Source: Deltaproteobacteria bacterium (GTDB lineage Bacteria; Desulfobacterota; Syntrophia; Syntrophales; Smithellaceae). Taken from it: DNA of 18,272 bases. The stretch is from positions 1 through 18,272 of the forward strand of contig JAGVUJ010000219.1 in NCBI GenBank assembly GCA_019136325.1. Direction: 5' to 3'. Made by a program: the position numbers and the translations under genes. The notes beneath the pieces are model-generated. The model had not been told where the DNA came from. It made no database searches and saw only the letters and a program-made list of their open reading frames with translations. This document shows, piece after piece, positions 2,265 through 18,272 of this stretch; position 1 is the stretch's first letter; the number at the start of each line of letters is the position of its first letter.

Positions 2265-2360
2265 TTCTGCCTTCTCAGGTTGATATCTTTTATTCGTGAA
2301 GCAACGTTTAACGAAACAAAATAGATCCATTTTGGCTGCGGATTAAAGTCTAACCTTGGC

Positions 2361-2366
2361 ATTATA
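2361..2366 (-). promoter_or_regulatory. Possible -10 box for the metallophosphoesterase gene
   Basis: The minus strand reads TATAAT here, a perfect sigma-70 -10 hexamer, about 97 bases before the phosphoesterase start and just past the stop of the acyl-CoA dehydrogenase gene. No good -35 match stands 16-18 bases upstream, so the call is weak. It would let the phosphoesterase be transcribed independently of the MoxR operon. Confidence 0.3.
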
Positions 2367-2394
2367 CCCGATCACAGGACGAAAGAAATTTTAA

Positions 2395-3519: not shown

Positions 3520-3520
3520 T

Positions 3521-4900: not shown

Positions 4901-4958
4901 ACGTTATTGCTTAAAGTCTGAAACGTTTCTGTCATGTTGAGGAGTCCCGATTGGCCGG

Positions 4959-5006
4959 AACGGCGAAAAATCTGATTTTAAAATTGCCACGCCGTTTGAG
5001 AAACGG
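4959..5006 (-). promoter_or_regulatory. Overlapping inverted repeats in the MoxR-VWA gap
   Basis: Two perfect inverted repeats share one arm. AACGGCG (4959-4965) pairs with CGCCGTT (4990-4996) around 24 bases; CCGTTT (4992-4997) pairs with AAACGG (5001-5006) around 3 bases. In minus-strand RNA the two hairpins are mutually exclusive, the arrangement seen in attenuators. No U-run follows either stem, so a role in termination is speculative; differential translation or mRNA stability of the downstream genes is also possible. Confidence 0.35.
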
Positions 5007-5026
5007 TTCGCCATGACATCGTTACA

Positions 5027-5935
5027 CTACGGCAGGATCCGATTGATATTTTTCCGGACCTTTTCCATATCCACCTGGTACTTGCAGATGATGTTCAACG
5101 TTTCTGAAACAACGTCCGGCGTGAGCTCGTTGATCTGCAGGGCGATCAGCGATTGCGCCCAGTCAATCGTTTCCGAGATGCTGGGATTTTTCTTCAGATC
5201 CAGCTTGCGGATTTTACGGATCGCGTCAACCAGAGCGTTGCAGAGCTTTTCCTCGATTCCCGGAATTTTCAGCCGGACAATGGATATTTCCGTTTCCCGC
5301 GCGGGATAATCAATATAGAGGTGAACGCAGCGGCGTTTCAGCGCATCGCTCATGTCGCGGTAATTATTCGATGTCAACAGCACAAAAGGAATCTGAATCG
5401 CCTTGCGGGTGCCCAGTTCGGGAATGGACACCTGGAAATCGCTCAGGAGTTCCAGAAGAAACGCTTCGAATTCCGGATCGGACTTGTCCACTTCATCGAC
5501 AAGAAGCACGACGGGTTTTTCCGAACTGATGGCCTGCAACAACGGACGATGCTGAATAAAACGGTCGGAAAAGAAAGCGTCTTCCTGCGCGGCTATCTGA
5601 TCGACCGCCTGCGTCAGAGTGGCGGCGGAGGAAATAATATCGTTGAGCCGGTCCTTGACCATCTGGGTGTAAAGAAGTTGTTTGGCGTATTCCCATTCAT
5701 ACAGAGCCTTGGCTTCATCCAGGCCTTCATAACACTGAAGTCGGATCAGTTCTCTGTTCAGAGAGCGTGCGATAGCCTTGGCCAGTTCTGTTTTGCCGAC
5801 GCCGGCCGGACCTTCTACCAGAACCGGTTTTTGCGTTGCCGCGGCCAGAAAAACAACCGTGGCAATTTCCCGCGACGGAATATATCCGGCATCCGTCAGT
5901 TTTTCGTGAACATCATCAACGCTTTTATATTCCAT
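5027..5935 (-). CDS. MoxR-family AAA+ ATPase
   Basis: 302-residue cytoplasmic AAA+ ATPase of the MoxR group, which couples ATP hydrolysis to maturation or remodelling of client enzymes, usually with a VWA protein. Seen: Walker A GPAGVGKTELAK (Lys48), Walker B VVLLVDEVDKSD (Asp147, Glu148), sensor-1 region LLTSNNYRDMS, and the Arg-rich ALKRRCVHLYI segment that normally carries the arginine finger. The start is placed at 5935, not the in-frame ATG at 5995, because AAGGA precedes this ATG by about 10 bases and because a TTGACA/TATGCT promoter lies between the two ATGs, so a transcript from it would not contain the upstream ATG. First gene of a minus-strand operon with the VWA and acyl-CoA dehydrogenase genes. 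Confidence 0.92.
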   Translation of the reverse strand: MEYKSVDDVHEKLTDAGYIPSREIATVVFLAAATQKPVLVEGPAGVGKTELAKAIARSLNRELIRLQCYEGLDEAKALYEWEYAKQLLYTQMVKDRLNDIISSAATLTQAVDQIAAQEDAFFSDRFIQHRPLLQAISSEKPVVLLVDEVDKSDPEFEAFLLELLSDFQVSIPELGTRKAIQIPFVLLTSNNYRDMSDALKRRCVHLYIDYPARETEISIVRLKIPGIEEKLCNALVDAIRKIRKLDLKKNPSISETIDWAQSLIALQINELTPDVVSETLNIICKYQVDMEKVRKNINRILP

Positions 5936-5966
5936 GAGAGAATGAATTCCTTTTCGAATTGCGCAA

Positions 5967-5995
5967 AGCATAGGTGATTTGTCAGGGTATGTCAA
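5967..5995 (-). promoter_or_regulatory. Sigma-70-type promoter of the MoxR-VWA-ACAD operon
   Basis: On the minus strand a perfect -35 TTGACA (plus positions 5990-5995) is followed after 17 bases by TATGCT (5967-5972), matching four of six -10 positions. Transcription would begin near 5960, leaving a leader of about 25 bases that holds the AAGGA ribosome binding site of the MoxR gene. This also decides the MoxR start codon. Confidence 0.6.
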
Positions 5996-6285
5996 TCAGG
6001 AATAGATATCCCAAACCGACGCAAGGGGGGCATCTATTCTCACCATCCGAGCGTTCCTGATCACGCTTCCCGTCGGGGATAATTTCCGGGAGCAAAGCCA
6101 TTGGAAAGTCCGATCTACGCTTTCTGTCGTCCGCGGGTCTCACGACCGCCGACGCTTCAGACTTCATCCTGACGGATCGTGATTCGTTTTCAGCGCGTCG
6201 TATGAAAAAGCGTTTTTCTCAAAAAGTCTTTCATGCTATGATAATGTCAAATTGCTTTCTCAACAGGAAATGAAAAGTACCTGAA
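5996..6285. other. Divergent intergenic region without a recognised gene
   Basis: About 290 bases between the minus-strand MoxR operon and the plus-strand HD-GYP gene. It must hold the HD-GYP promoter. A minus-strand reading frame of 61 codons exists but has no recognisable features and no ribosome binding site. Short GC-rich stem-like stretches (for example TCCCG near 6068 with CGGGA near 6087) do not add up to a known RNA family. Confidence 0.5.
6234..6242 (+). promoter_or_regulatory. Possible extended -10 promoter for the HD-GYP gene
   Basis: TG-N-TATGAT (TG at 6234-6235, TATGAT at 6237-6242) is an extended -10 match about 45 bases before the HD-GYP start. The -35 region is only a T-rich stretch, which extended -10 promoters tolerate. 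Tentative. Confidence 0.3.
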
Positions 6286-7668
6286 ATGGCAGATCGTCCT
6301 CTAAAATCAGCACTGAAAGATTTTTTCTTTTTCTGGAAACCGTCTCTGGCCAGAAGACTGACGCTGGCCTTCACCGTTTTTGGCCTGGTCATTGGCTATG
6401 CCGTCCTTATTTATCTCGCGGTTTTTTCAACCAACACGTTGATTAAACAGGCATCGGATTCGGTGGGAGAGTACCTGACGTACATGTCCAGGGAAAATCT
6501 GCGTGAAAATCAGGGGGAGCTTCTTAAATTCATTGATCAGCGCATGACGAACATTGTCAATATGGCGGAAGCCATGCAGGTGGTATTGCTTCCCGTTCAA
6601 TTCGAACTTTATTTTAAGAAAGACGGGAAATGGCTGCATACGTATACCGATGAACACGGCGTCGTCAAATCGGCAACAATCAACAATCCCGGACTATCCG
6701 GTTTGCTGGAAGATGCCAAAAATCAGAACATTACGACATCGTCAAAATTTTTCTATGGCGCGAAAAACAAGGTCAACGTCAAAATCAACATCAGCCCCCG
6801 TGAAAAAGATTATACGCAACTTATTTCGTTCGATATTTATCGGATAGGCGTGTTAAAGATTCTTCAGGAAAACATTTACAAAGCGGTGATCTTCTTTCTG
6901 ATTCTGCTGATTGTTTCGCACACGCTGGGACATCTGTTCAGCTATCTTCTGGCCCGTCCTATTGAGCATCTGTCCGGGGAAGCGGAGATGATTGCAAACG
7001 GAGATTATGAACGCCGTTTTACCAGTGGGCGTAAAGATGAAATCGGCAAGCTGGCTGATGCGCTCAATACCATGGCCTCCCGGATTATCGACGGGACGAA
7101 AGAAAGAGAAAAAATTCTGATCGGAATTTTGATTGCTCTGACCCGGGCGATTGATGCCAAGTCTCCCTGGACGGCGGGCCACAGCGAACGGGTGACCCGG
7201 TTTGCCGAAGCTGTCGGTCGCGGCATGCGTTTAAATGAAGACCAGATGCGCGTGCTGACCATTTCCGCGATTCTCCATGATATCGGTAAAATCGCCGTTC
7301 CGGAACAGATTCTTGATAAGCCGGGCAAACTGACCGATGAGGAATTTGCTGTTGTCAAAAAGCATTCGCAGGCGGGCGCGGATATCATTTCTTCGATTCC
7401 TTCTTATGAAACCATTCTCCCGGGAATTCTTTACCATCATGAACGCTGGGACGGCGGCGGTTATCCGGAAGGCCTTCAGGGAAGCAGCATACCTCTTTTT
7501 GCGAGAATAATCTGTATTGCCGATGTTTATGATGCGCTGACGGAAGACCGGCCTTACCGCAAAGCCTGGAGCCGGGAACAGGTCCGGCAGTTTTTTGAAG
7601 AACAGAAGGGGAAAATGTTCGATTCCGAACTGGTTGACATATTTCTGAAACTTCCGGATAGCCGCTGA
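6286..7668 (+). CDS. Membrane sensor with HAMP and HD-GYP c-di-GMP phosphodiesterase domains
   Basis: 460-residue inner-membrane signalling protein expected to hydrolyse cyclic di-GMP. Layout: transmembrane helix at about 24-48; an extracytoplasmic region of about 145 residues with no family I recognise by eye (Cache-like is possible); second helix at about 197-219; HAMP linker about 216-268; HD-GYP domain from about 275 to the end. Key residues are present: His299 in GHSERVTRF, His331-Asp332 and Lys335 in LHDIGK, and HHERWDGGGYP from His384, which is the HD-GYP signature. The presence of the full GYP motif separates it from plain HD phosphohydrolases. The gene is single, between a divergent operon and a convergent gene, and no ribosome binding site stands out before its ATG. 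The signal sensed is unknown. Confidence 0.92.
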   Translation: MADRPLKSALKDFFFFWKPSLARRLTLAFTVFGLVIGYAVLIYLAVFSTNTLIKQASDSVGEYLTYMSRENLRENQGELLKFIDQRMTNIVNMAEAMQVVLLPVQFELYFKKDGKWLHTYTDEHGVVKSATINNPGLSGLLEDAKNQNITTSSKFFYGAKNKVNVKINISPREKDYTQLISFDIYRIGVLKILQENIYKAVIFFLILLIVSHTLGHLFSYLLARPIEHLSGEAEMIANGDYERRFTSGRKDEIGKLADALNTMASRIIDGTKEREKILIGILIALTRAIDAKSPWTAGHSERVTRFAEAVGRGMRLNEDQMRVLTISAILHDIGKIAVPEQILDKPGKLTDEEFAVVKKHSQAGADIISSIPSYETILPGILYHHERWDGGGYPEGLQGSSIPLFARIICIADVYDALTEDRPYRKAWSREQVRQFFEEQKGKMFDSELVDIFLKLPDSR

Positions 7669-7721
7669 GAACATTTTATCCGGGTGCACGTTATTCCGGA
7701 TTCCAGCCGGATACATGCAAA

Positions 7722-7755
7722 CGCGGAAAAAACATGTTATAACGTTTTTCCCGCG
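7722..7755 (-). terminator. Hairpin terminator between convergent genes
   Basis: Twelve-base arms at 7722-7733 and 7744-7755 enclose a 10-base loop. Read as minus-strand RNA all 12 positions pair, one as G-U; read as plus-strand RNA there is one A-C mismatch. It lies 25 bases past the stop of the flavin reductase-rubredoxin gene and 54 bases past the HD-GYP stop, so it may serve both. The U-run after the stem is short (UUU) on the minus strand, so strength is uncertain. A smaller ATCCGG/CCGGAT inverted repeat lies at 7678-7701. Confidence 0.5.
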
Positions 7756-7779
7756 TCGATGATGATTCGCAACAACTTT

Positions 7780-8472
7780 TTATTTTTCTTTTTCAAACTT
7801 TGATTTGTCGGCGCCGCAAATGGGGCAGGTCCATGAATCCGGCACATCTTCAAATTTTGTTCCGGCCGCGACGCCGTTATCGGGATCGCCTTTAGCCGGA
7901 TCATATACATAACCGCAGACGCTGCACACATAGCTGGCATTGGCCTGAGGAGCTGCGGCGGCCGGTTCTTCCTTGGAGTAGGTCGGGGCCGTTTTCGGTG
8001 ATTTGCCACCTTTGACCTGCTGATAATAAGCGTAGGTCATGGGCGCGGCATCGCTGACCATGTCACAGTCGACAATGTTGCCCGTGAAAATGGTATGCGT
8101 TCCGCAATCCAGGTCGTTTTCCACTTCCACCTCGATGTACGATACGGTATTCTCCAGAATGATAGGCACGTTGGTCTGGCCGGTTTTTACCTTAATGTTT
8201 TGCAGTTTGTTCACATCACGGCCGCTTTTAAATCCGAAGAGGCCGATCAGGGGCATTGGCGCCGCTTCCGAAAGAATGGATACCACGAATTTGCGGCTGC
8301 GTTTTATCAAGTCGTGCGTGTAGTTTTCCTTGTTGATGCTGATGGCCAAGGTTGCCGGATTTGATGTGACCTGAAATATGGCGTTGGCAATTTGACCGTT
8401 GAAGGTACCGTCCTGACCGGAAGTGATGATATAGAGTCCGTAGCTGATTTTATGAAGCGCTGATCTGTTCAT
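7780..8472 (-). CDS. Flavin reductase-like protein fused to rubredoxin (Hrb/flavoredoxin type)
   Basis: 230-residue fusion. Residues 1 to about 150 are a flavin reductase-like FMN-binding split barrel (start [13 protein letters not shown], then [13 protein letters not shown] and [11 protein letters not shown], typical of the family). An Ala/Pro-rich linker at about 158-178 leads to a complete rubredoxin domain with Fe ligands Cys183, Cys186 (CSVCGY) and Cys216, Cys219 (CPICG). Such proteins, called high-molecular-weight rubredoxin or flavoredoxin in acetogens and sulfate reducers, pass electrons from NAD(P)H through FMN and rubredoxin iron to partners such as flavodiiron oxygen or NO reductases. 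AAGGAG stands 7 bases before the ATG, confirming the start. Monocistronic, with its own promoter and terminator. No partner gene is visible here. Confidence 0.92.
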
Positions 8473-8501
8473 GGTTTTCTCCTTTTGACGTCTTGCGTGC
8501 T

Positions 8502-8530
8502 TTTATAGCTTAATTTCATTTTCAGCGCAA
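8502..8530 (-). promoter_or_regulatory. Promoter of the flavin reductase-rubredoxin gene
   Basis: Minus strand: -35 TTGCGC (plus positions 8525-8530), 17-base spacer, -10 TATAAA (8502-8507). Transcription would begin about 20 bases before the ATG, leaving a leader that is mostly the ribosome binding site. Confidence 0.45.
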
Positions 8531-8611
8531 ACAGAAATGAGCGGCCATGATCGTCCCGGAAAATGAATTAAACCCGTAATGCTTTGGAATGCTTACCGTC
8601 CCTTTTTTCTT

Positions 8612-8638
8612 TTGACAAAGCGGACCTTTTCCTATAAT
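8612..8638 (+). promoter_or_regulatory. Promoter candidate for the FabA-led cluster
   Basis: Perfect TTGACA (8612-8617) and perfect TATAAT (8633-8638), separated by only 15 bases. Sigma-70 promoters prefer 17, and short spacers often mark promoters that need an activator which twists the DNA, such as MerR-type regulators. Whether it is used that way is a guess. The leader to the FabA start would be about 130 bases. Confidence 0.5.
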
Positions 8639-8777
8639 TGACTCCCATCAGAGTAAAAAATCCGGCGTTCAAAATGACTGATCGTGTTTGTGATTGTCCG
8701 GACATTCAACGCATGTTTTGAAAAATATTTATGAGCGTTATCTAAACGATATCAAACGCATGAAGTGAAAAACCATT

Positions 8778-9368
8778 ATGAAATATCAGGAATATTTAAA
8801 ACGAGATCACTTTAATTTCGAAGAAGTTCTTGCTTTCGCTTACGGGAAGCTGGTTGATGACCCTCCTGAACATTTTGATGCTAAATTTCCGGTGCCTCCT
8901 TTTCTCATGGTTGATCGGATATTGTCGATTGAGAGCAACGGCAAGCAGGGGAAAATTGTCGCCGAACTGGATATCAAGCTGGATGCCTGGTATTTTCAAT
9001 GTCACTTTCCGGGCGATCCGGTGCAGCCCGGATGTCTGGGTGTGGACGCGATATGGCAGTTGCTTGGTTTTTTCTGCGTCTGGCGCGGCGCGCTGGGAAC
9101 GGGCCGGGCTCTGGGCTGCGGTGATGTTGCTTTCAACGGCCAGATTCGCCCTTTTAACAAATGTGCCCGGTTTGAAGTCGATGTGCGGCGGTATTCGTTA
9201 TTAAAAGAGTCCGGAGCCAGTATTGTCATCGGTGACGGTCGCATTTATATTGACGATGAACTGATTGCCACCGTGAACCAGGCTCGCACCGGCGTTTTTA
9301 AGGATATTGCTTATACGGATTATCCGCTGCGTTCTAAACATTCAATCGGCGGAATCATGGAACGTTAA
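8778..9368 (+). CDS. fabA: FabA-type 3-hydroxyacyl-ACP dehydratase
   Basis: 196-residue hotdog-fold dehydratase that removes water from a 3-hydroxyacyl-ACP. It matches FabA rather than FabZ: YFQCHFPGDPVQPGCLGVDA has the FabA catalytic pair His76 and Asp90, spaced 14 residues as in E. coli (His70, Asp84), followed by IWQLLGFF and GRALGCGDVAFNGQIRP. FabA can also isomerise trans-2 to cis-3 double bonds; whether this one does cannot be read from sequence. It is about 25 residues longer than E. coli FabA, mostly at the N-terminus and a C-terminal tail. It is the first gene of the co-directional cluster, which suggests it serves this pathway and not general fatty acid synthesis. The ribosome binding site before ATG 8778 is weak, but alternatives would cut conserved sequence. 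Confidence 0.88.
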   Translation: MKYQEYLKRDHFNFEEVLAFAYGKLVDDPPEHFDAKFPVPPFLMVDRILSIESNGKQGKIVAELDIKLDAWYFQCHFPGDPVQPGCLGVDAIWQLLGFFCVWRGALGTGRALGCGDVAFNGQIRPFNKCARFEVDVRRYSLLKESGASIVIGDGRIYIDDELIATVNQARTGVFKDIAYTDYPLRSKHSIGGIMER

Positions 9369-9384
9369 TGCAGCAGGGAATATT

Positions 9385-9768
9385 TTGAGCCTTATCAAAA
9401 GAACAGCCGTTTATTTTGCCCGGAAGGAATTCTGCAAAACAGCGATCAATGAATGCGCTGATTTGAGTTTTATCAGGGAACACCACACGGTTCCTGTCCT
9501 GATCGGCATTTTTCTGATTGTCGTCAGTTTTCTGATCGGCTTACCGGCGGTTTTTGCCGTTGGAATCATTGCCGCCTGGATCAGGAAACCGTTGATCGGC
9601 GCCATCGGGATTCCGGTGGTTTACGGACTTTCGTGGCTGCTGCTGATGCTGGGCATGTATCTGACCGGTCCGGATTACGCCCGGGCGCTGGGAAAGTGGC
9701 TTGTGAAAGTTGTCTTGGAAAAGATTCTCGGGGAAGAAGCGAAACGCATCGCCTCGCCTCAAAGTTGA
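9385..9768 (+). CDS. Small two-helix membrane protein of unknown family
   Basis: 127-residue protein I do not recognise. The N-terminal 35 residues are polar with two Cys, followed by two strongly hydrophobic segments (about 37-64 and 69-93) joined by a short RKP turn, and a basic amphipathic C-terminal tail. It therefore should be an inner-membrane hairpin protein. The start is placed at TTG 9385, 16 bases after the FabA stop, because GCAGGGA precedes it at suitable distance; the frame is open further upstream, but those codons overlap the FabA gene. Position between dehydratase and ACP genes suggests a membrane tether or a subunit for handing over the ACP-bound chain, which is inference only. 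Confidence 0.7.
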   Translation: MSLIKRTAVYFARKEFCKTAINECADLSFIREHHTVPVLIGIFLIVVSFLIGLPAVFAVGIIAAWIRKPLIGAIGIPVVYGLSWLLLMLGMYLTGPDYARALGKWLVKVVLEKILGEEAKRIASPQS

Positions 9769-9791
9769 AATATTGAAAACAGGAGTGCTAA

Positions 9792-10064
9792 ATGAGTCAG
9801 ATTGAAGAAATGGTAAGTGAACTCAAAGTTAAAATTATTGATACGCTGGGACTGATTGATGTCGCACCGGAAGACATCAAGGATGATGAGCGTCTGGTCG
9901 GCGGTGATCTGGGGATTGATTCCATCGATGTGCTGGAACTGGTGATGATGATTGAAAAGGATTACGGTGTTAAAATTGACAATAAAGAATTGGGCGTCAA
10001 GGTTTTTAAATCCGTCCGCGCCCTCGCCACGTACATTGCGCAACATCAGAAAAAGAAGAGTTAA
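9792..10064 (+). CDS. Acyl carrier protein (first of two)
   Basis: 90-residue ACP. The 4'-phosphopantetheine attachment site is Ser44 in LGIDSIDVLEL, followed by the usual acidic helix II (MMIEKDYGVKI). The motif DSID differs from the DSLD of housekeeping FabF/FabZ-serving ACPs, and the C-terminal tail is Lys-rich. AGGAG stands 7 bases before the ATG. It probably carries the growing chain for this cluster; division of labour with the ACP at 12917 is unknown. An inverted repeat lies just past its stop. Confidence 0.9.
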   Translation: MSQIEEMVSELKVKIIDTLGLIDVAPEDIKDDERLVGGDLGIDSIDVLELVMMIEKDYGVKIDNKELGVKVFKSVRALATYIAQHQKKKS

Positions 10065-10078
10065 GGGTCATCTGACTC

Positions 10079-10101
10079 GATGAATCATGATGCCATTCAT
10101 C
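10079..10101 (+). repeat. Inverted repeat after the first ACP gene
   Basis: GATGAAT (10079-10085) and ATTCATC (10095-10101) form a perfect 7-base stem with a 9-base loop, followed at a short distance by a T-rich stretch. It could weaken read-through or protect the upstream mRNA. It is too weak to call a full terminator. Confidence 0.4.
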
Positions 10102-10122
10102 CATGATCTTTATTTCTAATTT

Positions 10123-11472
10123 ATGAAAGTACTGCTCATTTCGGCCAATACCCTCAGAATCCCGTATCCGGTTTATCCGCTGGGGCTGGACTATGTGGCC
10201 GGTTGTCTGGATTCCCGCTATCAGACCAGGATTGCCGATTTGAACGATTTTTCCAGTCCGGAAACTCTGGAGGCGATGATCGGCGAATTTTCTCCCGACG
10301 TTGCCGGGATATCCATTAGAAACATCGACAACACCGATGTGCTCAACTGCCGCAGTTTCCTGCCGGAATATCAAACCTTAATCGGCCGGATCAGAAAAAA
10401 ATCAGAAGCAAAAATAATCCTGGGCGGCAGCGGTTTTACGATTTTTCCCGTTGAATTCATGCAGGCGCTGGATGCTGATTACGGAATCGTTGGTGAAGGC
10501 GAAAGACTTGCGCTGCTTCTGGACGCACTGGAGAAAAACGAGGATGTCCTTCACATACCCGGTGTCCTGGCAAAAGATAAAACAGAAATCGTTTATGAAC
10601 CGTATAGCGGAACAATCAGCAGGCATTTTGATCCTGAAGAAACGCACACACGCTTTTACCTTGCTTACGGAGGCATGCTTAATCTCCAGACAAAAAGGGG
10701 ATGCCCCTTTCATTGCGGTTACTGCACCTATCCCCATATTGAAGGCGGCAAGATGCGATTCTATGATCCGGATGAGATTGCCCGCAGCGCACGCGCGTTG
10801 CAGGATGCCGGAGCTAAATACATTTTCATTACCGATTCCGCCTTCAATGCCAGCTATGAGCACAGCGCCCGGGTGGCGAAGGCTTTCATGAAGGCGGGCG
10901 TGTCCATCCCCTGGGGAGGTTTTTTTGTCCCCACCGTTCCTCCGGCCGATTACTTCAACTGTCTGGCGGATGCCGGTTTGACCCATGTGGAATTCGGCAC
11001 CGAATCTTTATCCGATCCGGTGCTTCAAAATCTGCATAAACCTTTCAAATCGGAAAATGTTTTTAAAGCGCAACAGGGAGCGCTGGAAGCCGGATTGCAT
11101 ATTGCGCATTATTTCCTGCTGGGCGGTCCCGGCGAGAACAGGGAAACACTGCAGACAACCCTGACGGGAATCGATAAACTGGAAAAAGCGGTTTTCTTTT
11201 TTTTCTGCGGCATTCGCATTTATCCGCACACGGCGCTGTATGATGTTGCCGTGCGTGAAGGCCAGATTAAAGCGCAGGATAATATTCTTCCTCCCGTATT
11301 TTACCGTTCGCAGGGAATAACCGTTGAAGACATTATGAAGACGGTGGAAAAACATGCCAACGGCCGGTTAAACTGGCTGATCGGCGCCGGCGAAGCCAAG
11401 GCCACACGCATCCTGCCGAAACTTTACAGACGCGGATTTACCGGACCGTTGTGGGAGTATCTGATTCAGTAA
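10123..11472 (+). CDS. B12-binding-type radical SAM enzyme
   Basis: 449 residues. The N-terminal 135 residues have the fold pattern of a cobalamin-binding domain (KVLLISAN start, YPLGLDYVAGCL, then IILGGSGFTIFP and DYGIVGEGE), followed by a radical SAM domain with the [4Fe-4S] ligands Cys194, Cys198, Cys201 in CPFHCGYC and conserved GGPGE and FGTES elements. Such enzymes often methylate unreactive carbons or perform ring chemistry using a 5'-deoxyadenosyl radical. The DxHxxG cobalamin-ligand motif is absent, as in many base-off members of this class, so B12 use is likely but not certain. In this setting the substrate is probably an ACP-bound or free acyl chain. Start ATG 10123 lacks a strong ribosome binding site, but the protein begins directly with the first beta strand, so it fits. 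Confidence 0.88.
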   Translation: MKVLLISANTLRIPYPVYPLGLDYVAGCLDSRYQTRIADLNDFSSPETLEAMIGEFSPDVAGISIRNIDNTDVLNCRSFLPEYQTLIGRIRKKSEAKIILGGSGFTIFPVEFMQALDADYGIVGEGERLALLLDALEKNEDVLHIPGVLAKDKTEIVYEPYSGTISRHFDPEETHTRFYLAYGGMLNLQTKRGCPFHCGYCTYPHIEGGKMRFYDPDEIARSARALQDAGAKYIFITDSAFNASYEHSARVAKAFMKAGVSIPWGGFFVPTVPPADYFNCLADAGLTHVEFGTESLSDPVLQNLHKPFKSENVFKAQQGALEAGLHIAHYFLLGGPGENRETLQTTLTGIDKLEKAVFFFFCGIRIYPHTALYDVAVREGQIKAQDNILPPVFYRSQGITVEDIMKTVEKHANGRLNWLIGAGEAKATRILPKLYRRGFTGPLWEYLIQ

Positions 11473-11488
11473 AAGCGACATTGTAATG

Positions 11489-11560
11489 GTCATTTCGGGG
11501 AACGAAGAGACGACAAATCTTTTTCTGCACAGGAAGATGTCTCCCTTTGGCCGACATGAC
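11489..11560. repeat. REP-like imperfect palindrome
   Basis: GTCATTTCGG (11489-11498) pairs with CCGACATGAC (11551-11560) in nine of ten positions. Inside, an AAATCTT segment near 11515 faces AAGATGT near 11533, and the parts between also pair partly, around a loop near 11525. Outer arms of the GTCATTTCG/CGAAATGAC kind are typical of dispersed intergenic palindromes in many Gram-negative genomes. It fills the gap between the radical SAM and deacetylase genes and could form a long hairpin in the mRNA. An apparently degenerate half copy starts at 4931. Confidence 0.6.
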
Positions 11561-11581
11561 AGGCACGTTAAAAGGTTATCC

Positions 11582-12379
11582 ATGAATAATCGATCTTCAT
11601 CTTTCAGTCCCGCTCAAATCACCGGAATAATTCTTCTGCTTGTCGCGGCGGTGCTCTTTTTTTTCAATCCGCTGATTGCGGCAGCCGTCGCCTTTTTTTA
11701 CATTGTTGTTTGTGTTGCCGCTTCGTTTTTCCCGCAAAGCAGCTTTTATTTGCCTGTCATCAGCCGCGGCCACACCGGCAAAAATTTGGTTTCGCTGACT
11801 TTCGATGACGGCCCGTCCGAACCGACGACAAAACAAATACTGGATTTGCTGGACCAATATTCGGCCAAGGCGACTTTTTTTGTTTCCGGCGTCAATGCCT
11901 TAAAGCATCCGCAAATAATCAGCGAGATCATCTCCCGCGGCCATACCGTCGGCAATCATTCGTTCCATCACAATCCGTTTTTGATGCTGGGCGGTTACAA
12001 TTATCTTTATGGGGAGATCTTTCGGACTCAGGAAATTTTACAACACATGGGCATCAACCCGCTGATCTTTCGGCCACCGGTGGGAATCATCAGCCCCAAA
12101 CTGCCGTCCGTTCTGAATAAACTGGAAATGTTCTGCGTGACGTTCAGTTGCCGCGCCGGTGACTTCGGCAATCGCCGTGTTAACCATCTCAGTTCAAGCA
12201 TTCTTGAAAAAGTTAAAGCCGACGATATAATATTACTGCATGATGCATCGCCACGCAGCGGGGAAGCCCAGACTGTGTTATTAGGCGAAATCGAAAAGAT
12301 ATTGCAGGGACTCAATCATCACGGTTTCAAAGTCGTTCCTCTTGCCGATTTGATCGGCAGACACGTATCATCCACATGA
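11582..12379 (+). CDS. Membrane-anchored polysaccharide deacetylase (NodB-type)
   Basis: 265-residue carbohydrate esterase family 4 protein. Two N-terminal hydrophobic segments (about 12-30 and 31-49) anchor it to the membrane. The NodB domain has all main motifs: SLTFDDGPS (Asp75 as base, Asp76 as metal ligand), NHSFHH (His126 and His130 as metal ligands), RPPVG and LLHDASP. Such enzymes remove N-acetyl or other acyl groups from amino sugars. Its place inside a fatty-acid-like cluster suggests a glycolipid or another amide-bearing product, but that is inference. The start is placed at ATG 11582, preceded by AAAGG at 6 bases; the upstream in-frame codons lie in the palindrome. Confidence 0.85.
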   Translation: MNNRSSSFSPAQITGIILLLVAAVLFFFNPLIAAAVAFFYIVVCVAASFFPQSSFYLPVISRGHTGKNLVSLTFDDGPSEPTTKQILDLLDQYSAKATFFVSGVNALKHPQIISEIISRGHTVGNHSFHHNPFLMLGGYNYLYGEIFRTQEILQHMGINPLIFRPPVGIISPKLPSVLNKLEMFCVTFSCRAGDFGNRRVNHLSSSILEKVKADDIILLHDASPRSGEAQTVLLGEIEKILQGLNHHGFKVVPLADLIGRHVSST

Positions 12380-12511
12380 TGTAACCTCACGTCATCAATA
12401 ATTAATGGTTGACCTTGTAAAAAAATTTTGATTGAAGAATCAAACAATGATATGAATTTCCACTTTTTTGGTGAAGGTTTAACGAAGACGGAAGCCAATG
12501 AGGTATGTTGA
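12380..12511. other. AT-rich gap with inverted repeat and possible internal promoter
   Basis: 132 bases, more AT-rich than the surrounding genes. TTTGATT (12427-12433) and AATCAAA (12438-12444) form a perfect 7-base inverted repeat with a 4-base loop. Overlapping it, TTGATT (12428-12433), a 17-base spacer and TATGAA (12451-12456) form a modest sigma-70-like promoter. The second half of the cluster may thus be transcribed independently, with the repeat as a possible operator. Confidence 0.4.
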
Positions 12512-12877
12512 TTGGAAAATCAATGGAATTTGTTAAAGGAAGTAAAAGAAACAAATAATAATGATATTGAAGCTTTGGCGAATGTTCCGGCTGATTCTTC
12601 GTGGTTTTCGGGACATTTTCCGGGTGAACCGATTCTTCCGGGAATAGCATTGGTTCATCTGGTCAAACAGGTGATTGCCCGAGGGAGGCAAAAAAAAAGA
12701 GAAAAACTGCAATTTTATGCTCTCAGAAGGATCCGGTTTACTCAGCCGGTGCGGCCGGGAGATTCATTGTCGGTAAATATAAACGCTGAAGATGCAGGGG
12801 AAGAAATTCTGTTCCACTTTAAAGTTGTCTGCCGGGGAAACATTGTCAGCAGTGGAATGATTGCCGCAAAAAAATAG
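12512..12877 (+). CDS. FabZ-like hotdog protein with altered active site
   Basis: 121-residue protein aligned over its full length with FabZ-type 3-hydroxyacyl-ACP dehydratases: SGHFPGEPILPGIALVHLVK carries the catalytic His35, and RRIRFTQPVRPGDSL and the final GMIAAKK match the family. The catalytic acid 14 residues after the His (Glu68 in E. coli FabZ, Asp in ApeI-like proteins) is His49 here. It may be a partner for an active dehydratase, an ACP-binding scaffold, or an enzyme with a changed mechanism. The start codon is TTG 12512, supported by GAGGT seven bases upstream; an ATG at 12505 leads to a quick stop in another frame. It is followed after 39 bases by the second ACP gene. Confidence 0.82.
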   Translation: MENQWNLLKEVKETNNNDIEALANVPADSSWFSGHFPGEPILPGIALVHLVKQVIARGRQKKREKLQFYALRRIRFTQPVRPGDSLSVNINAEDAGEEILFHFKVVCRGNIVSSGMIAAKK

Positions 12878-12916
12878 AATGGTAAAAAAATATAAATAAG
12901 TCGAATAAGGAGGAAC

Positions 12917-13192
12917 ATGATGCCTGCAAGTTATGATATCAAAGGCATTATAAGGCGCGTAGCCGAAATCATTATTGATGAGTTGAAACTGGAAGATGTG
13001 ACTGCAGATACCTTTAGTCCGGATATGGATCTGGTTGATGAACTGGGGATTGACAGCATGGATCTGGCGACGATCGCTCTGGTTCTGCAGGATGAATACA
13101 GAATTACGATCGATGAAGACGATTATCCCACATTGAAGACCATTCGTCTCATCTCCGAATATATTAAGGAGAAACTGCCTGTCAGACATTAA
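12917..13192 (+). CDS. Acyl carrier protein (second of two)
   Basis: About 90-residue carrier protein with phosphopantetheine site Ser47 in LGIDSMDLATI and an acidic C-terminal half. It is clearly different from the ACP at 9792 (DSMDLATIAL against DSIDVLELVM), so the two probably have different partners. A strong ribosome binding site, AAGGAGG, precedes two adjacent ATG codons; the second (12920) has better spacing. The gene ends 4 bases before the next radical SAM gene, implying translational coupling. Confidence 0.88.
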   Translation: MMPASYDIKGIIRRVAEIIIDELKLEDVTADTFSPDMDLVDELGIDSMDLATIALVLQDEYRITIDEDDYPTLKTIRLISEYIKEKLPVRH

Positions 13193-13196
13193 TGCA

Positions 13197-14291
13197 ATGA
13201 AGCAAAGGGGTATGCCGGTTAACAATAACGTAGCCACGGAATCATCCAAACCGAAATTTTCCGACCTTTTAGCGCATCCGGACGTCAAAGCACGCTGGGA
13301 GAAAGTCAGAAAATATTTTTTTCTGCGCGAATCGACGTACGACATGTCCAATCGCTGCAATATCCGTTGCGACGGATGCTACTATTATGAAGGTGAAAAA
13401 CAGTTTGCCCGGGAGGTGTCGGATGTTGAGGCGTGGCGCGAGCTGATGCGTGCGGAAAAAGCACGCGGGATTACCTATGTCGTGCTGGCCGGCGCCGAGC
13501 CGTCTCTGGTGCCGGCGTTGCTGGAGGTCTGTTATCAGGAAATGCCGCTGGGCAGTATTGCCACGAACGGTTTTAAAAAAATACCGGAATCCGTCGGTTA
13601 CAAACTGCACGTTTCCGTCTGGGGCAATGATGAAACCAGCCTGAAAATCAGGAAGGCGAAAAACCTTTTGAAAAAACAGATTGAAAATTACGAAAACGAT
13701 CCGCGGGCGGTTTTTGTCTATACGTTTACGCGGGACAATATTGACGAGGTGAACGACGTCACGGAAGCGCTTGTCGCTCATAACTGCAAACTGACGTTTA
13801 ATGTTTTTTCTGCTCCGGTCGGTTACGATGGAAGGCTTCGGCATGATGATGAATCACTCGGGCGGACCCGACAGACGATGATCGGGCTTTTGCGGAAATA
13901 TCCGCGCCATGTCCTTTTTTCTGTTTATAATGCCGTGGCGCACACTCACACAAAAGGATTGCACGATCTATACCGTTGCTCCTATCCCCGTCAGAATCCC
14001 TCGCAGGATATCGGCTTGGGCAGGTCTTTCCGCCAGTACAGGACGGATTTGAACTGGGACCGGTCGGTTGCCTGCTGTGTGCCGGACACGGATTGCGTGG
14101 ACTGCCGCCATTACGCCGCCGGCTCCGCGGTGGTCACGGCGCGACTTTATCGCCACGTGAATAATCTGGACACCTTTAAATCGTGGCTGGATTATGTCGA
14201 TACTTATCTGGCGGTATGGGTCATGGGCTATGAAAAAGACGACAATCTTTGTCATGAAATTATAGAACCGCCCTATGCGGCGACATCATAA
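13197..14291 (+). CDS. Radical SAM enzyme with C-terminal cysteine cluster (paralogue A)
   Basis: 364 residues. Radical SAM ligands are Cys54, Cys58, Cys61 in RCNIRCDGC, preceded by TYDMSN, and followed by VVLAGAEPSL (the GGEP position) and IATNGF. A second cysteine set lies at Cys261 (YRCSYP), Cys293-Cys294, Cys300 and Cys303, a likely site for one auxiliary Fe-S cluster, in the manner of SPASM or Twitch domains, though the spacing does not match a textbook SPASM motif. The chemistry is unknown; auxiliary clusters are common in enzymes that dehydrogenate or cross-link. The next gene is a paralogue. Start 13197 overlaps no other gene; ATG 13212 is an alternative, and neither has a good ribosome binding site, in keeping with coupling to the ACP gene 4 bases upstream. 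Confidence 0.88.
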   Translation: MKQRGMPVNNNVATESSKPKFSDLLAHPDVKARWEKVRKYFFLRESTYDMSNRCNIRCDGCYYYEGEKQFAREVSDVEAWRELMRAEKARGITYVVLAGAEPSLVPALLEVCYQEMPLGSIATNGFKKIPESVGYKLHVSVWGNDETSLKIRKAKNLLKKQIENYENDPRAVFVYTFTRDNIDEVNDVTEALVAHNCKLTFNVFSAPVGYDGRLRHDDESLGRTRQTMIGLLRKYPRHVLFSVYNAVAHTHTKGLHDLYRCSYPRQNPSQDIGLGRSFRQYRTDLNWDRSVACCVPDTDCVDCRHYAAGSAVVTARLYRHVNNLDTFKSWLDYVDTYLAVWVMGYEKDDNLCHEIIEPPYAATS

Positions 14292-14311
14292 AAATATAGT
14301 GTTGTTTCGTT

Positions 14312-14343
14312 CCGGCACGCGCGACCTGCAGATGACGTGTCGG
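14312..14343 (+). repeat. Hairpin between the two radical SAM genes
   Basis: CCGGCACG (14312-14319) and CGTGTCGG (14336-14343) can pair over 8 positions including one G-U in RNA, around 16 bases. It lies in the 80-base gap and is not followed by a T-run, so it is not a terminator. It may tune expression of the second enzyme. Confidence 0.3.
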
Positions 14344-14371
14344 ACCGGAATAACATAAACAGGAAGGATAG

Positions 14372-15370
14372 ATGAAGACAGTCAGTTCCCTGCTGGACAA
14401 AGAATGGCATGATCGATACAGACGGATTTCCAGTCTGAACATTCGCAGTTCAATCTACGACGTTACCAATCGCTGTAATTTGCGCTGCAAGGGTTGTTTT
14501 TTCTTTTCTTCGGGAGAACATGAAGCGGCTCCGGAAGAAATGGACATCAAAAAATGGGAAGCATTTATCGACCGTGAAAAAGAGCGTGGCGTCAACCTGG
14601 CGATTCTGATCGGCGGAGAACCGACGCTCTGCCTTGACCGCGTCGAAGCCTTTTATAAACGTCTGCCCACCTATTGCGCCACCAACGGTCTGATCAAGGT
14701 TCCCCGGGATAAGTTTCCCGATATGATGGTAGGAATTTCTCTCTGGGGCAGCGCTGAAGATGAAAAGATTCTCCGCGGACGCGATACCTTTGCCGTCTCG
14801 AGTAAAAATTATGAGGGTGACGCTTACACCTACTATCTCTATACCATCACGCCGCGTCAGGTGGGCAAGATCGAGCCGGTCATCAAAAGAATCGCCGATG
14901 TCGGTCTGAAAGTTCATTTGCAGCTTTTGTCCAACGACGAAGGCGTGGACGGATTTTCCTGGCGGGAAGAAGAACTGAACGATTTACGTTTTGAAATGGA
15001 TGAAATGCTCGACCGGTATCCGCGCACGGTCATTTCCTGCAAATATTATCATGAAATCATCACCACCGGTAAAATGATGGGCCGGACATTCGGCTGGCAG
15101 GAATGCCCTTCCGTGACCGAAGCCCTGGACAACAGAGCCAGCCGGCCGAGGCGCCTGATTCACTTTGCCCGCTGGGCATCCGATTTGAAAACCGTTCATC
15201 GCTGCTGCACGTCGGCGACCCGCGACTGTTCCACCTGCAAGGACGGCGCAGCGCATATGAGCTGGGTCATGGTCAACAAACGCGAACATTTGAAATCAAC
15301 ACGCGATCTGCAAAACTGGATTGAAGTTTACGAGATGTTTGCCAAACTGTATCACTTTATTCCTTGGTAA
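14372..15370 (+). CDS. Radical SAM enzyme with C-terminal cysteine cluster (paralogue B)
   Basis: 332 residues, paralogous to the preceding gene product along its length. Radical SAM ligands are Cys35, Cys39, Cys42 in RCNLRCKGC; LAILIGGEPTL and CATNGLIKVP follow at matching positions, as do GISLWGS (VSVWGN in the neighbour) and RYPRTV (KYPRHV). The C-terminal cysteines are conserved: Cys245 (QECPS), Cys278-Cys279, Cys286 and Cys289. It is shorter by about 20 residues at the N-terminus and also at the C-terminus. The two proteins may form a heterodimer or act in sequence on related positions of one substrate. AGGAAGG precedes the ATG, so its translation is independent of the first gene. Confidence 0.88.
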   Translation: MKTVSSLLDKEWHDRYRRISSLNIRSSIYDVTNRCNLRCKGCFFFSSGEHEAAPEEMDIKKWEAFIDREKERGVNLAILIGGEPTLCLDRVEAFYKRLPTYCATNGLIKVPRDKFPDMMVGISLWGSAEDEKILRGRDTFAVSSKNYEGDAYTYYLYTITPRQVGKIEPVIKRIADVGLKVHLQLLSNDEGVDGFSWREEELNDLRFEMDEMLDRYPRTVISCKYYHEIITTGKMMGRTFGWQECPSVTEALDNRASRPRRLIHFARWASDLKTVHRCCTSATRDCSTCKDGAAHMSWVMVNKREHLKSTRDLQNWIEVYEMFAKLYHFIPW

Positions 15371-15381
15371 TACCCCATAAA

Positions 15382-15433
15382 TTTTGATATAGATCCCTCT
15401 ATCAAAACCCCGCTTTGTTTATTTTTACGGGGG
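15382..15433 (+). promoter_or_regulatory. Two consecutive inverted repeats before the ketosynthase genes
   Basis: TTTTGATA (15382-15389) and TATCAAAA (15400-15407) form a perfect 8-base inverted repeat around 10 bases, and CCCCG (15408-15412) with CGGGG (15428-15432) form a second stem followed by a T-rich run. The first looks like a repressor operator or hairpin; the second resembles a weak terminator or attenuator. Together they could set the level of the ketosynthase block relative to the radical SAM genes. Confidence 0.45.
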
Positions 15434-15458
15434 ATGTTTTTGTTTTTAAGGACGGGCA

Positions 15459-16709
15459 ATGAGTTTTAAAAAAACCTTAATCCTGGGCTACGATGCCGTG
15501 TCGTCTCTGGGGACGGATCTGGATACGCAATGGCAGAGAGCCGTTGCCGGAGATTGCGGTATCGGGAATCTGACCCGGTTCCCGCTGGGGGAAAATTTTC
15601 CGGTCCGGGTTGCCGGTGAAGTGGCGGACATCGATTCACGTCCGTATCCTTTTCTGCAGCCCAGGGATTTGGCGCATTGGACCTCACCCATCTTCAAATA
15701 CGCGCTGCTGGTGGTGCATCGCGCTTTGGAGCGCAGTGGAATCGCTTTGACGAAGGCATTGGCTCCACGAGTGGCGATAACTTTCAGCTCGGCCGTCGGC
15801 GGGCTGGATGCTGTTTTGCAGGCGGATCGCCTGATGGTTAAGGACGGCAAGCTGCCTCATCCGTTTACCAATCCCAATTCCTGCATCAATATGGTCGGCG
15901 GTAAGGTATCCATTCTCACCGGCGCGACGGGTCCCATTTGTTCGACCATCACAGCCTGCGCTACCGGCGTTACGTCACTGGTCATCGGCGAGATGCTGCT
16001 GCAGCGGAATATGGCGGATGTCGTGATCGGCGGCGCGGTTGATTTTCCCCTGGTGGAGCCGATTGTCGCCGGATTTGCGACGATGAACGGCGCATACCGT
16101 CCCAAAGAAGGACAGCCTCCGGAGCGGCCCGAAAAAACCAGCAGACCGTTTTCCATCAACCGGCGCGGTTTTGTCGTTTCCGAAGGGGCGGGTTGCATTA
16201 TTCTGGCGACGGATGAATTTGTCAAAACCCATGGGCTCAAATCAAACATCGAAATGGCCGGTTGGTCCATGACGTCAGATGCCAGCCATTTCGTTTCGCC
16301 GAATTTGGCCACGGTGCAGAGGTGTATGGAGGAAACGATTGCCCATGCCGGATTAAAGCCGGAAGATGTTGACGCGATTAACGCGCATGCGACCTCGACA
16401 AAAATAGGCGATAAGATAGAGGCCGATGCGCTGAAAAATATTTTCGGCGATAGAATGCCGCCGGTATCGGCGAACAAGTCGCAGCTGGGACACGCGATGG
16501 GCGCGTCCAGCGCCATCGAAGCGATTCTGGCGATGGAAGGAATGAAACAAGATACATTATTGCCGACAATCAATTACAGCCCTGATCGGGAAATCGTGAT
16601 CGACTGCGTTGCCGAAGGCGCAAGAAAATTACAGCAGGAATTTGTTTTAAAAAACGCATTCGGATTCGGCGGATGCAATTCGTGCATCGTCTTGCGCAGA
16701 ACAGGTTAA
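15459..16709 (+). CDS. Beta-ketoacyl-ACP synthase, FabF-like (first of two)
   Basis: 416-residue condensing enzyme that extends an acyl chain with malonyl-ACP. The full Cys-His-His triad is present: Cys167 in ITACATG, His310 in INAHATST and His345 in NKSQLGHAMG, with Lys340. HATST replaces the usual HGTST. The C-terminal FGFGGCNSCIVLR has Cys where most family members have Thr-Asn or Ser-Asn. AAGGA lies about 8 bases before the ATG. The gene ends 4 bases before the second ketosynthase gene, so the two are probably co-translated and may form a heterodimer. The complete triad argues against a chain-length factor. Confidence 0.92.
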   Translation: MSFKKTLILGYDAVSSLGTDLDTQWQRAVAGDCGIGNLTRFPLGENFPVRVAGEVADIDSRPYPFLQPRDLAHWTSPIFKYALLVVHRALERSGIALTKALAPRVAITFSSAVGGLDAVLQADRLMVKDGKLPHPFTNPNSCINMVGGKVSILTGATGPICSTITACATGVTSLVIGEMLLQRNMADVVIGGAVDFPLVEPIVAGFATMNGAYRPKEGQPPERPEKTSRPFSINRRGFVVSEGAGCIILATDEFVKTHGLKSNIEMAGWSMTSDASHFVSPNLATVQRCMEETIAHAGLKPEDVDAINAHATSTKIGDKIEADALKNIFGDRMPPVSANKSQLGHAMGASSAIEAILAMEGMKQDTLLPTINYSPDREIVIDCVAEGARKLQQEFVLKNAFGFGGCNSCIVLRRTG

Positions 16710-16713
16710 AAAT

Positions 16714-17979
16714 ATGAAAGCTCCGAAAAACAGAAGAGTGTTTGTCGTCGGTTATGGAACGGCCACGCCGCTGGGAAGCACCTTTGAAAAAACATGGAAG
16801 AGGGCGGTGAAAGGCGAGGCCGGCTTTCGCAGGGTCACGCGCTGCAAGGTTGAATCCGCCTGCGACGTGGTCGGCGAAATACCGGACTGGTATCCGCTGG
16901 AGCTTGACTTTACGGACGCGAAGGAAGTGTATAACTGGAATGCGGCGTTCGTTATCTTAACCATGGCCGTCTGTAAGGAAGCGCTGCAAAATGCCGGCAT
17001 AACCGTCGATGTCCAGATAGCGCCGCGTATGGCCTGCCTGATCGGTTCAGCGCTGAACGGCGCGGATGCCTTTCGCGTGGCGGTTCATGATCTGGAACAC
17101 CGCGGCCCGCTCCGGGTCAGTCCCTACCTGTTGCCCAATTTGTGCGCCAATCTTCCTTCCGGCAAGGCGGGAATGCTGCTGAAATTTACCGGGCCGATTT
17201 TTTCGCCGCAGGGCGCATGCGCGTCGGGCAATCACGCGATCGGCATCGGGGCAAGAATGATTCGGGACGGCGACTGCGATTTTGTGCTGGCTGGCGGAGC
17301 CGACACGCCCATTCTGCCGGAGTTGATCCACGGCTTTGCCAATATGAACGCCACCATCAAAGTGAATCCGAAGGATCGCGCCTATGAAAATCCTTTACAG
17401 GCGTCGCGTCCGTTCAGCGCCGACCGGAAAGGCTTTGTCCTTTCCGAGGGAGCCGGCGTTGTCATTCTGGCGGCTGACGAAGCCGTGAAAGCTTACGGGT
17501 TAAAACCCAAAGCGGAAGTGCTGGGCGTCGGCTGGTCATCGGACGCTCATCATTATACCAGCCCGAATATGCCGACCATTATCCGCGCCATCCGGGAGAC
17601 CATCGAGGATGCGGAATTGACGCCGGAAGATATTCAGTATATCAACGCTCACGGCACGTCCACCCCGAAGGGCGACAGCACGGAAATAAAATGTCTGCGC
17701 GAGGTGTTCGGGAAAAACATAGAAAAAATTCCCGTATCGTCAAATAAATCGCAGCTGGGGCATACGCTGGGCGCAACGGCGGCCATTGAGGCGGCCCTGA
17801 CGATTGAGGGAATGAGAAAGAGTTTAATTCTACCAACGATTAATCATATTTCCGATCCGGATTTCTCCGATATCGATGTTGTGCCCAATGAAACGCGTAA
17901 ACAAAAATATGAAATTGCCCTTTCCAACGCATTCGGTTTCGGCGGAACGAACTGTTGTGTCATTTTCAGAGGAGTGTAG
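16714..17979 (+). CDS. Beta-ketoacyl-ACP synthase, FabF-like (second of two)
   Basis: 421-residue condensing enzyme, paralogous to the preceding one. Triad: Cys169 in GACASGNHAIG, His313 in INAHGTSTP, His350 in NKSQLGHTLGA, with Lys345; the C-terminus has the standard FGFGGTNCCVIF. The residue before ACASG is Gly instead of the common Thr. Since both synthases are catalytically complete, they probably act on different chain lengths or different intermediates, as the paired ketosynthases of aryl polyene clusters do. The thioesterase gene follows after 2 bases. Confidence 0.92.
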   Translation: MKAPKNRRVFVVGYGTATPLGSTFEKTWKRAVKGEAGFRRVTRCKVESACDVVGEIPDWYPLELDFTDAKEVYNWNAAFVILTMAVCKEALQNAGITVDVQIAPRMACLIGSALNGADAFRVAVHDLEHRGPLRVSPYLLPNLCANLPSGKAGMLLKFTGPIFSPQGACASGNHAIGIGARMIRDGDCDFVLAGGADTPILPELIHGFANMNATIKVNPKDRAYENPLQASRPFSADRKGFVLSEGAGVVILAADEAVKAYGLKPKAEVLGVGWSSDAHHYTSPNMPTIIRAIRETIEDAELTPEDIQYINAHGTSTPKGDSTEIKCLREVFGKNIEKIPVSSNKSQLGHTLGATAAIEAALTIEGMRKSLILPTINHISDPDFSDIDVVPNETRKQKYEIALSNAFGFGGTNCCVIFRGV

Positions 17980-17981
17980 TC

Positions 17982-18272
17982 ATGAGACCCAAACCTTTTA
18001 AACCGGACATATACAACCAGGATGAACATTATGTGCGCGACCGGACGACCGGTCTCGTCTGGCATCGCTCCACATACAGGGTTTTGTATATTGATACGGA
18101 TCGTTCGCAAGTGGTGTATCATTCCAATTACCTGCGTTATTTTGAATTTGGACGGACATCGCTGATGCGGGATCTGGCATACCCCTACAAGGAAATCGAA
18201 GACAGCGGCTATGTCTATCCTATTTTCGATCTCGGGATCAGCTTTCATCAGCCTCTGTATTATGATGACGTC
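17982..18272 (+). CDS. Acyl-CoA/acyl-ACP thioesterase, 4HBT/YbgC type, 3' end cut by window
   Basis: The first 97 codons are visible and open to the window edge. The hotdog thioesterase signature YIDTDRSQVVYHSNYLRYFE (about residues 37-56) aligns with the DTDxxGvVyhxNYl motif of YbgC and 4-hydroxybenzoyl-CoA thioesterases, and the Asp of DRS sits at the catalytic position. The usual Gly after it is Gln. The N-terminus is about 30 residues longer than YbgC. GAGGAG precedes the ATG, and the start is 2 bases past the ketosynthase stop, so it belongs to the same operon. It probably releases the finished or aberrant acyl chain; 4HBT proteins of aryl polyene clusters are comparable. The rest of the protein and any later genes are not visible. 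Confidence 0.82.
   Translation, partial: MRPKPFKPDIYNQDEHYVRDRTTGLVWHRSTYRVLYIDTDRSQVVYHSNYLRYFEFGRTSLMRDLAYPYKEIEDSGYVYPIFDLGISFHQPLYYDDV

Follow-up and report, generated by a model that had tools for sequence, protein, structure and literature searches.

The DNA analysed here (the window) is an 18,272-nucleotide stretch from a Deltaproteobacteria bacterium (GenBank assembly GCA_019136325.1, contig JAGVUJ010000219.1, positions 1 to 18,272 of the forward strand), and its positions 8778-18272 hold a cluster of genes for type II fatty acid synthase (FAS II)-like proteins and radical S-adenosylmethionine (SAM) enzymes. The genes, eleven complete and one cut, all point the same way on the + strand and are separated by short gaps, as the original prediction had described. 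The gene families were assigned by Pfam and NCBIfam profile searches of the window proteins, and these matches supported the earlier view that the cluster is of FAS II type and includes radical SAM enzymes. The locus appears to be a conserved lipid module with, in relatives, a dedicated acyltransferase, partly related to the ladderane-candidate clusters of anammox bacteria yet distinct from them. The radical SAM protein RS1 was 84-90% identical to its counterparts in the ten best loci, labelled Smithella, Syntrophaceae or Deltaproteobacteria, which makes the window Smithella-like.

The downstream part of the cluster opens with the gene for a FabZ/ApeI-like dehydratase (DHZ, 12512..12877), which exceeded the cut-off of the ApeI-like family PF22818 (34.4 bits, cut-off 28.5) and scored higher with the FabA-like Pfam model (44.6 bits). 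It is followed by an acyl carrier protein gene (ACP2, 12917..13192, PP-binding 39.7 bits) and by the genes of two radical SAM paralogues, RS1 (13197..14291) and RS2 (14372..15370), which share 27% identity and whose NCBIfam matches were all far below the model cut-offs. In RS1, both the CxxxCxxC motif and a C-terminal CCx5Cx2C motif were present in 73 of 73 sequences, and in RS2 the CxxxCxxC motif and a C-terminal CCx6Cx2C motif were each present in 57 of 57. The fold model of RS1 (pLDDT 82.3) had SPASM/twitch-type radical SAM proteins as structural neighbors. Two FabF-like ketosynthases (KS) come next, KS1 (15459..16709) and KS2 (16714..17979), which scored 323.6 and 384.7 bits with TIGR03150, under its cut-off of 493.75. 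Alignment to 4ls5 and 3o04, respectively, showed that both retain the Cys-His-Lys-His residues, and no catalytically altered KS was found in the window. The last gene (TE, 17955..18272, start uncertain) is cut at the window end and encodes a 4HBT/YbgC-type thioesterase (PF13279, 28.1 bits, cut-off 25.5); a full-length relative (L013:14918-15499) reached 79.5 bits with TIGR00051, above the cut-off of 68.7.

Five genes precede this core. The first (DHA, 8778..9368) encodes a FabA-like 3-hydroxyacyl-ACP dehydratase/isomerase (Pfam FabA, 130 bits), which passed the cut-off of NF003509 (196.5 bits, cut-off 124) and stayed below that of TIGR01749 fabA (155.9 bits, cut-off 238.15). The aligned His and Asp, which we take to be the FabA catalytic residues, were both kept in 21 of 21 sequences including that of the window. 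The predicted small membrane protein (MEM) is present and hydrophobic by eye, and it matched no Pfam or NCBIfam family, but its listed open reading frame (ORF; 9307..9768) overlaps the DHA gene and the true start is unclear. A second acyl carrier protein (ACP1, 9792..10064, PP-binding 42.4 bits) is followed by a cobalamin-binding radical SAM enzyme (B12, 10123..11472), which scored 385.3 bits with TIGR04072 (rSAM_ladder_B12, cut-off 360). Its CxxxCxxC motif was found in 48 of 48 sequences and its closest match in the PDB was 6wte, a B12-dependent tryptophan C2-methyltransferase. The upstream part is closed by a polysaccharide-deacetylase-like gene (NODB, 11486..12379, Pfam 95 bits), with TFDD and H[ST]xxH motifs in 48 of 48 sequences.

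A genome-contig scan with RS1 resulted in 306 relatives, and the best 80 loci (L001-L080), all of which contain RS1 by construction, were kept. They were divided by similarity rank into close (L001-L042) and distant (L043-L080) loci, a split of our own choice. Only loci with sufficient flank entered the counts, and a gene had to sit on the expected side, in the same orientation and at most 10-11 kb away. The core from DHZ to TE was almost invariant: DHZ was found in 35/36 close and 34/34 distant loci, ACP2 in 39/39 and 37/37, RS2 in 37/37 and 26/26, KS1 in 30/32 and 22/22, KS2 in 24/25 and 14/15, and TE in 23/24 and 14/15. Gaps of 0.9-4.3 kb interrupted the core in L037, L041, L048, L066, L067, L073 and L075. 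The upstream genes were variable, with DHA in 21/31 close and 0/24 distant loci, MEM in 29/32 and 8/25, ACP1 in 30/32 and 16/25, B12 in 31/32 and 18/25, and NODB in 33/34 and 16/27. Because relatives repeat this gene order, chance is excluded as an explanation for the grouping, and the block is conserved in other genomes as had been proposed.

The gap between NODB and DHZ (12380-12511 in the window) is a frequent insertion site, with inserts of up to 4.4 kb in relatives. Its contents were read in ten close loci (L001, L004-L006, L008-L011, L013 and L019), and an opposite-strand short-chain dehydrogenase/reductase (SDR) gene was present in five of these. Single cases held a BchE-like B12-radical SAM enzyme (L009), another B12-radical SAM enzyme (L019) and a further radical SAM enzyme (L013). 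Unrelated genes also occupy this site in some relatives. The insertions suggest that the block consists of two modules and not of one fixed operon, a detail in which it differs from the original prediction.

A protein search with RS1 gave 2056 matches at E <= 0.001, and the source names among the best 120 listed were generic. RS1 was present in 29 of 80 sampled genomes of the order to which the window's relatives belong (the order of L001). It was also found in 10 of 198 genomes sampled from the phylum of the genome (G009) that contains the Spirochaetes-labelled L067, one of them a weak match (168.7 bits). The core on one contig labelled Planctomycetota (L050) resembled Desulfobacterales versions, reflecting either a binning error or a transfer.

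The window ends inside TE, and the genes that follow are known from relatives. There, TE is followed by a gene for a protein of ∼307 amino acids (aa; 46 loci), with a weak match to the PS-DH polyketide dehydratase domain that suggests a double-hotdog dehydratase-like protein, and then by a gene for a ∼195 aa protein (35 loci). No other downstream genes recurred in more than nine loci. The ∼195 aa protein is a PlsY-type glycerol-3-phosphate acyltransferase, with 121.7 bits for PF02660 (L001) and 97.5 bits for TIGR00023, below the cut-off of 137.2; the motifs NxGxxNxxR and GGKG were kept in 33 of 33 sequences. In relatives, then, the cluster does continue beyond the position that matches 18272 and does include an acyltransferase, as the original prediction had allowed for, and the proposed lipid or envelope destination of the product gains support from this PlsY. 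Distant loci add FabG, an ApeP-like dehydratase, LolA, a phytoene-desaturase-like oxidase, a PlsC-type acyltransferase and a BchE-like B12-radical SAM enzyme (BchE model 168.4 bits, cut-off 481.35).

The distribution of PlsY was investigated in 14 carriers of the cluster and in the 80 genomes of the order. Thirteen of the carriers had one PlsY copy above the cut-off and one (G012) had two, and the single PlsY shared a contig with the cluster B12 gene in 11 of the 13 (not in G007 and G014). A first reading from these carriers, with PlsY as the main acyltransferase, was overturned by the order sample. PlsY was present in 31 of the 80 genomes: 28 contained both RS1 and PlsY, one RS1 only, three PlsY only and 48 neither. 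In 18 of the 28 a single contig carried the two genes, separated by 5.7-10.8 kb, and in 10 they were on different contigs. TIGR04072 was likewise above its cut-off in 25 of the 29 RS1 carriers vs 2 of the other 51 genomes. PlsX was found in 0 of the 80 genomes, while the same search detected it in 8 of 14 control genomes. A PlsB-like protein was present in 68 of the 80 genomes, 63 of these with scores above 400 bits and none above the family cut-off of 618.5, and in 24 of the 29 RS1 carriers, one of them as a 115-bit fragment. Taken together, the missing PlsX and the common PlsB-like protein make PlsY look dedicated to the cluster product. We therefore assign PlsY to the cluster; the usual acylation of phospholipids in this order is probably the task of the PlsB-like enzyme.

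Similar-looking clusters had already been recorded. FAS II gene clusters that include radical SAM enzymes were described in Kuenenia (kuste3335-3352) and Desulfotalea, and anaerobic synthesis of polyunsaturated fatty acids (PUFA) was proposed (Rattray 2009, PMC2649909). The Kuenenia genes are also listed by Javidpour (2016), the ladder-building enzymes were still unidentified according to Uegaki (2023, PMC9821293), and a 2023 survey (PMC9902471) reported antiSMASH 'ladderane' clusters with unknown function in Desulfobacterota and other phyla. We located a Kuenenia-type cluster in two anammox-like genomes, and its domains were assigned by a Pfam run on L125 and L126. It contains a KS, a KS with only N-terminal domain matches, a methyltransferase, a further KS and an AMP ligase, followed by a SPASM radical SAM enzyme, a B12-radical SAM enzyme, a FabZ-like protein, a methyltransferase, an MMPL protein, a desaturase-like protein and a glycosyltransferase. 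A direct match of the window to these loci is not supported: the clearly shared part is the B12-radical SAM enzyme, which belongs to TIGR04072 in both and is 34-35% identical, and several KS, an ACP, a FabZ-like dehydratase and a polysaccharide-deacetylase domain protein occur there as well. The deacetylase of L125 and L126 bears an extra DUF3473 domain, unlike that of the window. RS1/RS2, FabA and the thioesterase, together with PlsY in relatives, set the window apart, and its genes include none of the SAM methyltransferases, SPASM radical SAM enzyme, AMP ligase, MMPL, phytoene-desaturase-like or glycosyltransferase genes of L125 and L126. The SPASM enzyme (kuste3343-like) lies beside the B12 enzyme in L123 and L125 and is not found in the window. 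In a tree, the anammox-cluster B12 enzymes were separate from 20 window-type sequences (support 99/99). Of 17 anammox-like genomes, three had TIGR04072 scores of 411.8-440 bits, and the remaining 14 stayed under the cut-off. No RS1 orthologue was found in these 17 genomes, with a best score of 46.6 bits over ∼100 residues vs 677-738 in carriers, and nothing came near the ∼141 bits that the RS1 profile gives to the RS1-adjacent paralogue in carriers, RS2 having been covered by the RS1 profile and not by a separate search. Based on sequence comparison, the locus thus appears ladderane-cluster-like without being a member of these clusters. Just downstream of the core and on the opposite strand, a Desulfatitalea locus has a radical SAM gene (L079:10878-12041) that shares 44% identity with its anammox SPASM counterpart. 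A TIGR04072 paralogue at 305-339 bits, below the cut-off, was seen in 10 of the 17 anammox-like genomes; it adjoins an ORF of 353-383 aa in L127:9329-11825, L128:9941-12483 and L129:7662-10187, which in L128, the one tested, is a type III polyketide synthase.

These comparisons bear on two alternative products. A full ladderane pathway outside the anammox bacteria would account for the common TIGR04072 enzyme, for the phytoene-desaturase-like gene in some distant loci and for distant loci with a KS didomain or a KS pair resembling the anammox KS/altered-KS pair; the first half of the didomain resembles the anammox KS, and in L044, the one tested, the second half has no C-terminal KS match. The missing RS1 in the anammox-like genomes and the missing methyltransferase, SPASM radical SAM, desaturase-like and MMPL genes in the window make it highly improbable, and Desulfotalea psychrophila was described as having no ladderanes (Rattray 2009, PMC2649909). 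Like the locus described here, the D. psychrophila clusters are from a deltaproteobacterium, combine FAS II genes with radical SAM enzymes and were proposed to serve anaerobic PUFA synthesis; by the published description alone, they differ in phytoene-dehydrogenase-like genes and a CoA ligase syntenic with Kuenenia, which the window does not have. That organism contains C31:8 and C31:9 hydrocarbons, and, following the proposal made for it, the cluster may supply a polyunsaturated chain for long polyunsaturated hydrocarbons (C31:9 type) made by the Ole head-to-head pathway. An OleC-family match above the cut-off in 6 of the 14 carriers, including those of L001 (G001) and L003 (G002), fits this proposal. 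We consider it unlikely, since the other 8 carriers, which are drafts, had no such match above the cut-off (one was close, with 465.3 vs 478 bits), the cluster-linked PlsY indicates a glycerolipid, and the C31:9 hydrocarbon of Geobacter has been tied to a different, Pfa-like synthase (PMC3098273). FabA-type chemistry could, as in a Pfa synthase, yield cis double bonds anaerobically, but the window encodes discrete type II proteins and no large Pfa proteins.

Aryl polyene clusters consist of type II KS, ACP and ApeI-like dehydratase parts together with an aryl starter pathway, e.g., an ammonia-lyase and an AMP ligase. The earlier likening to them gained from the ApeP-like and LolA genes of distant relatives, and the DHZ score above the ApeI-like cut-off and the set of window genes, among which no enoyl reductase was recognised, would also suit an aryl-polyene-like pigment cluster that acquired radical SAM genes. 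However, no aryl starter gene was recognised among the 12 window genes, in a search limited to the window and the recurring downstream genes and not covering the whole genome, and the clusters with ApeP-like and LolA genes were made up of distant loci only. To our knowledge, neither a linked PlsY, seen here in relatives, nor three radical SAM enzymes are features of aryl polyene clusters, and we hold this origin to be quite unlikely. It is very unlikely that the KS, dehydratase and ACP genes make the usual unsaturated fatty acids, with the radical SAM genes as unrelated neighbors. FabA, FabZ and FabF are all ordinary families, but RS1 is succeeded by RS2, KS1 and KS2 in almost all loci of sufficient length, few with insertions, and RS1 is missing from 51 of the 80 genomes of the order.

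We favor, with a probability of roughly 0.6, the reading that the locus encodes an anaerobic type II FAS-like line making a dedicated membrane-lipid acyl chain, unsaturated and radical-modified, for a glycerophospholipid. The growing chain would be carried by ACP1 and ACP2 and elongated by KS1 and KS2. FabA dehydratase/isomerase chemistry can give cis double bonds anaerobically, and the FabA-like and FabZ-like dehydratases, with the double-hotdog dehydratase-like protein of the relatives, may introduce the double bonds. As the window genes include no recognised enoyl reductase, the chain would stay unsaturated if no enzyme from another locus reduces it. Radical chemistry by RS1, RS2 and the B12 enzyme may alter the chain, on its carrier or after release, by forming C-C bonds, cyclising it or desaturating it. 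The thioesterase and the cluster-dedicated PlsY could then release the chain and attach it to glycerol-3-phosphate, giving a special glycerophospholipid. The data show the gene content, the conservation of the block, catalytic motifs that are for the most part retained and the co-occurrence with PlsY in an order sample without PlsX, whereas we infer the unsaturation, the radical modification and its order, and the lipid class; rings, branches and cross-links might be formed, and a polyene might also result. A bolder version, which we regard as possible though doubtful, makes RS1 and RS2 the founders of a radical SAM family that has no name yet. Together with the B12 enzyme, the pair would work on a polyunsaturated chain bound to ACP and yield a cyclised or cross-linked membrane lipid; this lipid would occur widely among uncultured anaerobes of the Desulfobacterota and Spirochaetota, and a PlsX-independent PlsY would load it on glycerol-3-phosphate.

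Several points weigh against this reading. A NodB-like deacetylase has no obvious role in a lipid pathway. FabA is gone from 24 of 24 distant loci, so that its step is not universal. One SDR from the NODB-DHZ gap was tested, and its best match was adh_short, with a further match to adh_short_C2 (Pfam title: enoyl-ACP reductase), so a linked reductase may exist. The PS-DH match is weak; in the three proteins tested, it was 25.7 bits (cut-off 23.7), 22.9 bits (below the cut-off) and no match. The third PlsY motif is altered: two patterns for it matched 0 of 33 and 1 of 33 sequences, and NHRxN stands in the listed variants of the alignment. The association of RS1 with PlsY (Fisher p 4e-17) is uncorrected for shared ancestry. 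PlsY normally uses the acyl-phosphate made by PlsX, and with PlsX missing the acyl donor is unexplained. Fatty acid kinase, which produces acyl-phosphate in other bacteria (PMC9136124), is a possibility.

The B12-radical SAM family of the ladderane-candidate clusters also occurs in a compact lipid module of other anaerobes, and RS1, RS2, KS1 and KS2 provide a clear core for testing. The dedicated PlsY predicts the destination of the product, which can thus be searched for by lipidomics. If the favored reading is true, the locus would reveal a new class of lipid, which might serve as a biomarker, together with radical enzymes of a new family that act on acyl chains. The original prediction had left room for a known pathway with a known product; no publication on RS1/RS2 or their product, and no characterised product, was found in the open-licence literature.

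Upstream of the cluster, positions 1-8472 of the window contain a partial P-type ATPase, a metallophosphatase, an acyl-CoA dehydrogenase, a VWA/AAA pair, a HAMP/HD-domain protein and a flavin reductase-rubredoxin gene. The latter adjoins the cluster in 28 loci, including the window.

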